Positions 1,684 to 37,086 of a stretch of 64,000 bases of DNA are shown here, piece by piece (positions within the stretch are counted from its first letter, which is position 1; every line of letters begins with the position of its first letter). The notes under the pieces are model-generated. The model was not told the DNA's origin. It saw only the letters and a list, made by a program, of their open reading frames with translations, and made no database searches. Origin of the DNA: Acidobacteriota bacterium (GTDB lineage: Bacteria; Acidobacteriota; JAAYUB01); assembly GCA_016935015.1 (NCBI GenBank), contig JAFGRT010000021.1:1-64000 (forward strand), in the 5' to 3' direction. The position numbers and the translations under genes are program-made.

Positions 1684-2022
1684 TTATTCTGTTCTTCGAG
1701 CCTGGCTTCGCCGGTGATAGAGGCGTTCGGTGAACCCGCCTTTCTTTTCGAAGGCGTCGGCCTGGGCGGCCAGCTGGCGGTCGAGGAGGCTGCCCGCCAC
1801 GGCGATAAGCACCAGCGCAGCGTTGGCGGCGATTTCGGGGTAGGAAGATCGGCTGGACGAAGTGGACATTGTGGACGGAGTGGACATTGTGGACGGAGTG
1901 GACGGAGTGGATATGGAAGAAGCAGGGGGCAGGGAATGCCCATCGCCCGGTCTGGCTTTTGGTTCCTCCTGTCCAAGTTGTCCATGTCGTCCACTCTGTC
2001 CACCCATACCCATCCTCCCCAA
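1684..2022 (-). CDS. Four-helix-bundle suffix-domain-like protein lacking a recognisable N-terminal four-helix bundle, with low-complexity repeat linker
   Basis: C-terminus SSYPEIAANAALVLIAVAGSLLDRQLAAQADAFEKKGGFTERLYHRRSQARRTE matches what I recall of the four-helix-bundle suffix domain; preceded by STPSTPSTMSTPSTMSTSS encoded by 9-bp repeats. Confidence 0.55.
   Translation of the reverse strand: MGRMGMGGQSGRHGQLGQEEPKARPGDGHSLPPASSISTPSTPSTMSTPSTMSTSSSRSSYPEIAANAALVLIAVAGSLLDRQLAAQADAFEKKGGFTERLYHRRSQARRTE
1853..1915 (+). repeat. 9-bp tandem array (array A): ctggacgaa/gtggacatt/gtggacgga/gtggacatt/gtggacgga/gtggacgga/gtggatatg
   Basis: Seven consecutive 9-bp units read directly from sequence; core GTGGAC. 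Confidence 0.95.
1971..2006 (-). repeat. 9-bp tandem array (array B), opposite orientation: gtccaagtt/gtccatgtc/gtccactct/gtccaccca
   Basis: Four consecutive 9-bp units; core GTCCAC is the reverse complement of array A core. Confidence 0.9.
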
Positions 2023-2049
2023 TGAACATTTCCGAATCTGAAGAAATTC

Positions 2050-4029
2050 CTACCGTCTGATTCTCGCCACCCAGCCGCCGCCGGGGGCCAGTCGGACGGT
2101 CAGAGTGGTGGCGGCGTCCACCTGCTGGGGCCGACGCACGAAATCACGGCCATGGCGATGGGCGTTGACGCCGTCCTGCCAGATGTCGGCCCGCCAGGGG
2201 CCCTGGCCCAGAAAATCGAAGGACACGTCCAGGGTCCGGGCGGAGCCGTCCGTCATGGCGGCGACCCACCATTCCTCCCCCGTGCGCCGGGCCAGCAGGA
2301 CGTATTCGCCCACGCGGGCATCCAGGGCGCGGGTCTCGTGCCAGGTGGTCGGCACCGCCGCCAGGAGTTCCATGGCCTCGGGCTCGCGCCAGTAATGGGA
2401 CGGCGAATCGGCCAGCATCTGCAGCGGACTCTCGAAGATCACATATATGGCCAGCTGGTGGCAGCGGGTGCCCTGGCTCATGGGCACGCGGAAAACGGGG
2501 GCGAACTCCTTCTCCTGGGCGTTGAGCATGGCGCCGGGGGTGTAGTCCATGGGGCCGGCCAGCATGCGGGTGAAGGGGAGGGTGACGTCGTGGGCCGGCG
2601 TCACGTCACGGCTCCACTTGTTCCACTCCAGGCCGCGCACCCCTTCGCGGGTGAGGACGTTGGGATAGGCCCGGCGCAGCCCCGTGGGTTTGTAGGCGCC
2701 GTGAAAATCCACCAGCAGGTGATGGGCCGCCGCCTGGCGGGCGCACTTCCAATAGAAATTCACCATCTTCTGGTCGTCGCGCTGCATGAAATCCACCTTG
2801 ATCCCCTTGACGCCCCATTCCTCGAAGGCGGGCAGGGCCTCGTCCATCTGCCGTTCCAGGGTCAGCCAGACGCACCAGAGGATGATGCCCACGTTTTGGG
2901 AGCGGGCGTGGCGCAAAACCGCCGGCAAGTCCAGCTTGGGATTGATTTTGAACAGATCGGTGGTGTCGGACCAGCCCTCGTCCAGGATGATGTACCCGAT
3001 GCCGTACCGGGCGGCGAAATCGATATAGTGGCAATAGGTGGCCGTGTTGATGCCGGCCTCGAAATTGACGCCGAACAGGTTGTTGGCGTTCCACCAGTCC
3101 CAGGCCACCTTGCCAGGCCGAATCCATGCTGTGTCCGACAGTTCCAGGTCGGGCGCCAGGCGGTAGACCAGGTCGTTTTCCAGCAGTTGCCGGTCCTGCG
3201 TTGCCACCAGCACGGCTCGCCAGGGGTAGGCGCGCTTGCCGGCGGTGACGGCCAGGTAGTCGGCCCGTTCCGTCACGACCAGGTCCCGGTCGCGCCGGAG
3301 TTCCTCCTTGAGCGGGTATGACGGGAAGCGGGCGTGCAGCAACGCCTCGCGCCCGTCACCGCGCAGGTACATGCCCGGGTAGTCGGCCAGGTCCGCCTCG
3401 GTCACGGCCAGCAGGGTGCCCGAGTCCAGCCGCACCAGGACGGGTAGGCAGGCCATCTGTCGGGTCGCAAGTGACTTGACGGCCAGTTTGGGATAGACCC
3501 GCTCGGAATGGGTCATGAAGTTTTCCTCTTCCCCGAACCAGGCGACGGGATCGCCGGGGAAGCGGTAGGCGGCCGTCTCGGCGCGGACGGTGATCTCCCC
3601 GGGCTGGTCGGTCACAAAGCGCCAGGCGGCGCCGTCGTCGTAGACGCGGACGACCAGCCCATAGCCGTCGCCGAAGCGCAGATCCAGCTCATTGTACTCA
3701 TCGGGGATGACGGACCGCTTTTCAGGAACCACCGGGTGCAACACCGCCCGGTGTTCGCGACGCGACTCGCGCAGAGGCCCGTGGCGGCCGTCCAGCACCC
3801 GGTCCGGCTCGCCGGCCAGGGTGAGGGCCATGCGATCCACCTCCAGCAGTGTCTCCAATCCCCGCACGAGGCGCAGGGCGAGGGCCGGCGAGGTCTCCAC
3901 CCGCAGCGTCAGGTTGCCGTCGGGGGATGACAGAATGAAGTGGGCGGCGGTCTCTTCGGCCCTCACCCCGGGGAAAATGGCCAGATCACCCGCGAGCAGG
4001 ATGACCAGCAGTGTCGCGCGCATATCCAC
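2050..4029 (-). CDS. Glycoside hydrolase family 97 (SusB-like alpha-glucosidase/alpha-galactosidase), secreted
   Basis: 659 aa with signal peptide; WDWWNANNLFGVNFEAGINTATYCHYIDFAARYGIGYIILDEGWSD and VKGIKVDFMQRDDQ are GH97-type motifs. Confidence 0.92.
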   Translation of the reverse strand: MDMRATLLVILLAGDLAIFPGVRAEETAAHFILSSPDGNLTLRVETSPALALRLVRGLETLLEVDRMALTLAGEPDRVLDGRHGPLRESRREHRAVLHPVVPEKRSVIPDEYNELDLRFGDGYGLVVRVYDDGAAWRFVTDQPGEITVRAETAAYRFPGDPVAWFGEEENFMTHSERVYPKLAVKSLATRQMACLPVLVRLDSGTLLAVTEADLADYPGMYLRGDGREALLHARFPSYPLKEELRRDRDLVVTERADYLAVTAGKRAYPWRAVLVATQDRQLLENDLVYRLAPDLELSDTAWIRPGKVAWDWWNANNLFGVNFEAGINTATYCHYIDFAARYGIGYIILDEGWSDTTDLFKINPKLDLPAVLRHARSQNVGIILWCVWLTLERQMDEALPAFEEWGVKGIKVDFMQRDDQKMVNFYWKCARQAAAHHLLVDFHGAYKPTGLRRAYPNVLTREGVRGLEWNKWSRDVTPAHDVTLPFTRMLAGPMDYTPGAMLNAQEKEFAPVFRVPMSQGTRCHQLAIYVIFESPLQMLADSPSHYWREPEAMELLAAVPTTWHETRALDARVGEYVLLARRTGEEWWVAAMTDGSARTLDVSFDFLGQGPWRADIWQDGVNAHRHGRDFVRRPQQVDAATTLTVRLAPGGGWVARIRR

Positions 4030-35682: not shown

Positions 35683-36564
35683 ATGACTTCGGACGACTAT
35701 GAAACCATTGCCGGTAATGTGTTTCGGCCGCCCTCACAGGATGCCCGCGTCGACGCGTATCTGGTGGTTGTGGCGGGCATCGATATCGGTAAGATCTATC
35801 CCGTGCAGGGTACGGCCGTGATCATCGGCCGGGGGGCCGATTGCACCATCGTCTGTGACAGTCCGCTGGCCTCGCGGCTTCATGCCCGGCTGGAGATCCG
35901 CGACGGCGAGACCTGGATCGTGGACCTGGGCAGCACCAACGGAACCCTGGTCAATTTCGAACCCATCAAGGAAAAACAGCTGGTCGACGGCGACAAAATC
36001 GCCATCGGCGAGACGGTGCTGAAATACCTGGCCGCCGACACCATCGACAAGACGTTTCACGATGAAGTGTACAAGCTCACCTCGCGGGATCCCCTGACCC
36101 AAGCGTACAACCGGCTGTTTCTGGAGGAAATGCTGGTCAGGGAATTTCAACGGGCAAGGCGCGCCCACGGCAAACTGAGCCTGTGCATGATGGACCTTGA
36201 CTATTTCAAGGAAGTCAACGACCGGTTCGGTCACCCGGCCGGCGATGGGGTGCTGCGCGGCCTGAGCGAACTGGTGCAGCAGATCATCCGCCAGGAGGAT
36301 ATTTTCGCCCGGTACGGCGGCGAGGAATTCTGTCTTTTGTTGCCGGGGCGGAGCAGAAAGAAAGCTCTGGCCATCGCCGAACGGATCCGCAAGTCGGTGG
36401 AGCGGCATGTTTTTCAGCAGGACGGGGAACTCATCCGGATTACCGTCAGCATCGGTGTCTGCAGTTTGTCCGAGTCGATCACGGTGGCGGAGGAGATGAT
36501 CCGTGAGGCGGACCGGATGCTGTATCGGTCCAAGGAATCCGGGCGCAACCGGGTGACCGGCTGA
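35683..36564 (+). CDS. FHA-GGDEF diguanylate cyclase
   Basis: FHA: AVIIGRGADCTIVCDSPLASRLHARLEIRDGETWIVDLGSTNGTLVN; GGDEF: SRDPLTQAYNRLFLEEML...RYGGEEFCLLLPG. Confidence 0.94.
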   Translation: MTSDDYETIAGNVFRPPSQDARVDAYLVVVAGIDIGKIYPVQGTAVIIGRGADCTIVCDSPLASRLHARLEIRDGETWIVDLGSTNGTLVNFEPIKEKQLVDGDKIAIGETVLKYLAADTIDKTFHDEVYKLTSRDPLTQAYNRLFLEEMLVREFQRARRAHGKLSLCMMDLDYFKEVNDRFGHPAGDGVLRGLSELVQQIIRQEDIFARYGGEEFCLLLPGRSRKKALAIAERIRKSVERHVFQQDGELIRITVSIGVCSLSESITVAEEMIREADRMLYRSKESGRNRVTG

Positions 36565-36588
36565 TCCGGCCGCCGCCCGGTGACCGGC

Positions 36589-37086
36589 CTATTTCTTCTT
36601 TTTGCCGTCCGTTTTCTTTTTCTTCCTGTCTTTCTTGCTCTTCTTGTCCTTCTTGCCTTTTTTATTTTTCTTGTCGGCGGCAATCTCCTTGTCTTTGGCC
36701 TTGTTCTTTGCCTTTTTTTTCAGCTTTTTCCGGGTTTGGGTCTCGGTGATGGATTCGGGCAGTTTCAGCAGGACCTCTGCTTCCTGCAGCGGTTGGCCGG
36801 GTAAAGGTGATGGGGAAAGCGGCTCGGCCTTGGTCGGAACGGTGAAATCGGCCAGGCAAGCCCGGATGCCTTTCATTGTCCGCGTTCCAATTTGGGGAAT
36901 GGCCGCGATGGTGTCGGGTTCGCTTTCCATCCGCGAGAACAGCTCACCGATGGTCTGGACCCCGCCTTTGAGCAGGAGGGTGATGGTCCGGGGTGGTAGT
37001 TCCATTTCGGACAAAGGCAGAGCGAGGACTTCGGCGGGGATCTCCACCCAACCGACAGGCGACGTACGCTTGGCAGGCTTGGTCAT
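36589..37086 (-). CDS. Hypothetical protein: RNAP alpha-CTD-like helix-hairpin-helix domain plus Lys-rich tail
   Basis: LALPLSEMELPPRTITLLLKGGVQTIGELFSRMESEPDTIAAIPQIGTRTMKGIRACLADF resembles alpha-CTD; last 47 aa contain 27 Lys. Confidence 0.7.
   Translation of the reverse strand: MTKPAKRTSPVGWVEIPAEVLALPLSEMELPPRTITLLLKGGVQTIGELFSRMESEPDTIAAIPQIGTRTMKGIRACLADFTVPTKAEPLSPSPLPGQPLQEAEVLLKLPESITETQTRKKLKKKAKNKAKDKEIAADKKNKKGKKDKKSKKDRKKKKTDGKKKK

Follow-up and report, generated by a model that had tools for sequence, protein, structure and literature searches.

Two opposed arrays of a 9-bp repeat lie in the stretch of Acidobacteriota DNA analysed here (64,000 nucleotides in full, hereafter the window), within what is probably a decayed or truncated gene of the TIGR02436+TIGR04258 type that has lost its N-terminal four-helix bundle. 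Comparison with intact relatives shows the arrays to be the former in-frame linker hairpin of that gene. Since relatives of the gene occur across phyla, each with its own version of the repeat and sometimes with that version dispersed through the genome, the gene and its repeat have the appearance of a selfish or regulatory pair that has so far gone unrecognised.

The minus strand of the window contains an open reading frame with a TTG start (positions 1684..2022), in which array B, a spacer, array A and a four-helix-bundle suffix domain follow one another in this order. The suffix domain (1693..1839, minus strand), recognised in the preliminary description from the letters, matched the NCBIfam profile TIGR04258 over the full model (49/49 positions, E = 6e-19), with 67.7 bits against a cut-off of 40. 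The bundle that should precede it was reported missing, and indeed no match to a four-helix bundle was found upstream of the suffix at this locus; the neighbouring GH97 glycosidase gene (2050..4029, minus strand) ends 44 bp before array B, so that no space is left for it. The orphan frame is followed directly, on its own strand, by mazE and mazF (915-1555), which lie outside the element and encode a MazE antitoxin (1262-1555) and a MazF toxin (915-1265, E = 2e-40). Elsewhere in the window, tandem repeats of 18 and 27 bp are present at 36537-36675.

The coordinates given earlier for the two arrays were exact. Array A (1853..1915, plus strand) consists of seven units of GTGGACNNN and array B (1971..2006, plus strand) of four units of GTCCACNNN; they are in opposite orientation and separated by a 55-bp loop (1916..1970). 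Five units of array A have the exact core GTGGAC, with CTGGAC and GTGGAT at the array ends, and array B has GTCCAC twice together with GTCCAA and GTCCAT. On the coding (minus) strand array B forms the 5' arm, with GTGGACNNN units that translate as GGQSGRHGQLG, and array A the 3' arm, whose GTCCACNNN units encode Ser-Thr-x. A search for three consecutive GTGGACNNN units, allowing at most three mismatches, gave eight matches in the window, seven of these within the arrays, compared to a mean of 0.06 matches in shuffled sequence, placing the arrays far beyond chance; Tandem Repeats Finder gave array A a score of 93. RNA folding of 1845-2020 was more favourable than that of shuffled sequences on both strands (z = -4.24 for the plus strand, -2.62 for the coding minus strand), consistent with hairpin-forming arrays. 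The proposed pairing of the arrays into a stem thus held, but the isolated 6-bp helices imagined for it did not, the predicted fold having more continuous pairing.

Three relatives (L194, L198 and L203) were found to be intact, with a four-helix bundle, a linker carrying an inverted GTGGACNNN/GTCCACNNN pair and then the suffix. Their linker hairpin is of the GTGGAC/GTCCAC type and stands directly before the suffix, as in the window. L203 and the window have a reading frame in common (FGGQSGR and MGGQSGR, respectively), and the 3' arms of both are serine-threonine-rich. In a tree to which the window contributes its suffix only, this suffix grouped with L194, L198 and L203 (87/87), nested in a well-supported set of seven rows (98/80) designated class III. 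The remaining three rows have a linker hairpin, or an arm of one, of another flavour, CACGGACNN/GTCCGTGNN.

Based on this grouping with three intact relatives that have a linker hairpin, we assign the window locus to class III as a truncated gene, in keeping with the decayed copy that had been listed among several options. Another of these options, in which the repeats would bound a unique core and make up an element of their own, found no support: the hairpin is the in-frame linker of the gene and occupies the same place in the intact relatives. Comparison with the relatives showed that the bundle is missing as far as the hairpin's outer boundary. A deletion between direct repeats, one in a hairpin further upstream and one in the linker array, was favoured at first; it was dropped because the intact class III relatives have a complete linker hairpin and a simple N-terminal deletion is enough. 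Orphan suffixes were also seen at L192 and perhaps at L200, which is partly masked by N. The number of units per arm differs between the copies (window 4/7, L194 4/4, L198 about 3/4, L203 about 2/2), in agreement with the suggested gain and loss of units.

The genome to which the window belongs (assembly 96.8% complete) contained a single suffix domain, and TIGR02436 was matched at two other places, in one case with an in-frame TGA; an intact gene with both bundle and suffix was not found elsewhere in this assembly. Near the TIGR02436 gene with the TGA (L015, contig C36) there are short repeats of the CACGGATT/ATTGGACG type, which may be a further flavour, associated with a bundle protein that lacks the suffix. 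Contigs C114 and C115 each have a single degenerate array. With these contigs and the window set aside, matches to a short GTCCAC pattern were about as frequent as matches to the reversed control, indicating that the GTCCAC family in this genome is small. In the absence of an intact gene and with so few arrays, the window copy is probably inactive. For the window alone, it could be argued that the suffix frame and its hairpin are a functional, domesticated short protein and not a remnant, given an uninterrupted frame and a suffix score on a par with that of intact relatives. The TTG start, the absent bundle and the failure to find an intact copy in this assembly make this quite improbable, and we retain the truncated class III gene as our reading of the locus.

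Relatives were selected by protein alone in a scan of 85,488 species, with one genome per species, which gave at least 80 full-length relatives in about ten phyla. That similar arrays would accompany other suffix genes had been put forward as a check, and GGAC/GTCC paired units were present in the linker or at most 160 bp away for 45 of the 74 testable genes, the other 29 being without a nearby array. The same geometry placed 2-3 kb away gave a single hit in 242 placements, and the reversed motif was found at one of the 74 genes (p = 1e-33 for the association of array and gene against the controls). A period of 9 was strongly enriched in both flanks of the genes, with 18 as a multiple and other tested periods hardly so. 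Complementarity of at least 16 between the upstream and downstream flanks of one locus was seen at 15 loci, whereas 1.8 were expected, and flanks of the same gene were more complementary than flanks of different genes. The hairpins are positioned beside genes, inside linkers and in N-terminal extensions. Two Acidobacteriota loci (L086 and L062) have the core GGAG instead of GGAC, with CTCC in the opposite arm to match. In addition, a GGACAGGATGGACAGGAT...ATCCTGTCCATCCTGTCC hairpin at L232 (genome G122), together with the reversed control pattern in this family, which was matched 49 times in G219 and 19 times in G354, suggests a further repeat class.

Each protein clade proved to be tied to its own 9-bp repeat, with the GGAC core in common and clade-specific bases preceding it. 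These preceding bases were used as a flavour label, for which only loci with arrays could be entered and which in some cases derives from few units. Mapped on the protein tree, flavour required 5 changes versus 14.6 after shuffling, and none of 200 shuffles was as low. The AA flavour was present in 12 of 13 clade I rows and in none of the 20 clade II rows. Each clade spans several phyla, and both include Lentisphaerota, Thermodesulfobacteriota and Verrucomicrobiota, so that host phylum fails to explain the flavour. Moreover, paralogues keep their own flavour within a genome (AT, AT, GT and AA in G234; AT and GT in G180). Co-inheritance of a gene with the repeats next to it could produce the match near genes, but not the match of dispersed copies.

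Dispersed arrays in large numbers were first seen in four genomes, in the form of hairpins in which GGAC precedes GTCC, and the layout in array-rich genomes is 5'-(NNxxxGGAC)n-loop-(GTCCxxxNN)n-3'. In seven array-rich genomes these arrays match the flavour of the resident protein almost exclusively (about 27-670 matches, all figures for dispersed arrays being overlapping pattern matches and not element counts). AT and AA matches numbered 672 and 0 in G045, 208 and 1 in G293, and 80 and 0 in G104, while AA and AT matches numbered 338 and 0 in G053, 350 and 3 in G249, 171 and 0 in G106, and 27 and 2 in G105. G234, in which both clades are resident, has both flavours dispersed (AT 20, AA 14). Reversed controls gave 0 to 3 matches in the flavour-tested genomes. 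The exception is G101, whose clade II protein has the AG flavour and whose dispersed matches are AA (29) and AT (6). Dispersal of same-flavour hairpins in array-rich genomes strengthens the suspected link of the locus to a repetitive, probably mobile, element, although class III, the group of the window, is hardly dispersed, its GTCCAC flavour included.

Among 396 genomes of the phylum of the window, 19 carry the suffix gene. The hairpin pattern occurred at least 100 times in G045, G249 and G293 only, all of them TIGR04258-positive (p = 9e-5), and at least three times and above the control in 7 of 19 carriers versus 5 of 377 others (p = 1.2e-7), with thresholds that were set after the counts had been seen. 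Low hairpin counts in G016 and G042 resemble coding sequence. The complete genome G033 has 18 hairpin matches and the suffix gene was not found in it, and several carriers of the gene (G266, G298) have no exact hairpin matches.

The protein of locus L022 was modelled confidently by AlphaFold2 (pLDDT 92, pTM 0.85). The best solved structure for this model was Xcc0516 (2gsc; Foldseek probability 1.00, E 0.011), and Avd of a diversity-generating retroelement (DGR) particle (8ub7) was matched with probability 0.97, E 1.2 and a target TM of 0.72. The likeness to the S23/Avd fold is therefore supported; with relatives that associate with nucleic acids, the modelled likeness is one of fold only. Profile PF05635 matched the L019 protein below its curated cut-off (E = 1.3e-4). 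For four-helix-bundle proteins of the S23/IVP type, annotations are widespread but no function is established (PMC4990558).

Type I R-M genes were the commonest shared neighbours in 80 loci (HsdS about 16, HsdM about 14 and HsdR 7). HsdS is directly downstream in several loci, and the gene is often inside a type I R-M operon (L031, where it lies between hsdM and hsdS, L051, L063, L067, L075 and others). The identified neighbour clusters in these loci were R-M or ABC transporter, with no transposase or reverse transcriptase among them. A DGR-like hypervariable element, as was once considered, found no support, and the DGR reading was set aside, as neither a reverse transcriptase nor a template repeat was seen among the identified shared neighbours. 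Rfam gave no match in eight loci, including that of the window, and neither did the PADLOC and PDB sequence-profile searches. A literature search, mostly outside subscription journals, yielded no publication that names TIGR02436 or TIGR04258.

With moderate confidence, we favour cognate recognition between protein and hairpin, the gene and the hairpins forming one selfish family in which gene-bearing copies aid gene-less hairpins. The four-helix-bundle suffix protein, with its S23/Avd fold, would recognise the repeat hairpin that matches it, probably in RNA form, and copies with a gene would promote the maintenance and spread of hairpins that lack one, a role similar to that proposed for RAYT transposases and their REPs. 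New hairpin copies could be made or inserted by an enzyme of the host. We infer both the binding and the mobilisation. A bolder version is put forward only tentatively: an Avd-like bundle protein without a reverse transcriptase of its own might recognise the clade-specific hairpin in its own mRNA and in dispersed copies, and drive their copying via a borrowed host enzyme.

Alternatively, the dispersed hairpins may be REP-like 3'-end elements (terminators or mRNA stabilisers) with the protein as their cognate RNA-binding regulator, the spread being passive or due to other enzymes. The location of hairpins in G045, sampled in 12 stretches chosen because most hold arrays, is consistent with this: nine hairpins were intergenic, five of them between convergent genes, and most were 4-30 bp from a stop codon. 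None of the sampled hairpins had the inverse polarity, all being GGAC..GTCC. The S23/Avd fold also agrees with a regulator, and linker hairpins within the gene would fit autoregulation. However, the copy number in carriers ranges from 0 to hundreds, and the 3' end of fabI resembles a tolerated insertion site more than a conserved regulator. G414, G293 and G412 lack the G045 hairpin at the corresponding position and have other hairpins there instead; at this one orthologous site, the only one compared (73-78% DNA identity), the hairpin is lineage-specific. Inverted short tandem arrays of the AAAGCAG type surround a TCATCCTGAGCG element in the intergenic region 3' of fabI in G293 (L259). Overall, we consider a 3'-end regulator rather unlikely.

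It is distinctly less plausible that the arrays are the active party, mobilised by another transposase or reverse transcriptase with the four-helix-bundle suffix genes as cargo or preferred targets. The varied positions of hairpins relative to the genes (adjacent, within the linker or in an N-terminal extension) could be expected from such targeting, as could the hairpins of G033, where the suffix gene was not detected. Nevertheless, flavour tracks the protein clade within one genome and across phyla, and type I R-M genes are the most frequent shared neighbours, none of the identified clusters being a transposase. Simple-sequence expansion, in which a low-complexity linker grows by slippage and repeats nearby arise by chance, would explain the open frame at 9 bp and the varying unit number, but is highly improbable in view of the inverted arms with matching changes on both sides, the uniform polarity in the G045 sample and the genome-wide dispersal of the same flavour.

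Cognate recognition, the reading we prefer, would account for dispersed hairpin repeats in Planctomycetes, Chlamydiae, Verrucomicrobia, Acidobacteria and relatives, and the clade-specific pairing of protein and repeat makes it directly testable. The Avd-like version, if true, would represent a new kind of selfish partnership between protein and RNA in about ten phyla.

Of the known systems, Avd of DGRs is matched in fold only (8ub7), no reverse transcriptase, template or variable repeat having been found among the identified shared neighbours. The intervening sequences (IVS) of 23S rRNA with their S23/IVP proteins, as in Coxiella, are similar in having a four-helix-bundle ORF in an RNA with a long end stem (PMC4990558). 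One hypothesis cited in the same paper regards the IVS as a mobile element and its ORF as coding for a component needed for mobility, an old idea in which the ORF aids its own stem-forming element. IVS are located in 23S rRNA genes, whereas the element of the window is between GH97 and mazEF; furthermore, the stem of repeated 9-mers, the extra suffix domain and the dispersed gene-less hairpins are unlike IVS. The nearest described DNA elements are the paired tandem-repeat sites of Geobacter metallireducens (PMC2700814; classes 1-3, units of 7-9 nt on opposite strands), which are likewise dispersed pairs of opposed short tandem arrays with variable spacing. Their unit sequences are different, they have been interpreted as possible IHF/HU sites, and the text consulted makes no link to a four-helix-bundle suffix gene. 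REP/BIME with RAYT (PMC3733652) also has a gene in one or few copies with hairpins, and dispersed hairpins of matching flavour, a dispersal found in the wider family but hardly in the genome of the window. A REP hairpin is a short palindrome tagged GTAG, in contrast to the 9-bp tandem units with a GGAC core. RAYT is a tyrosine (Y1) transposase; the arrangement described here is organised like REP/RAYT, but with a TIGR02436/TIGR04258 four-helix-bundle protein of the S23/Avd fold in place of the transposase.
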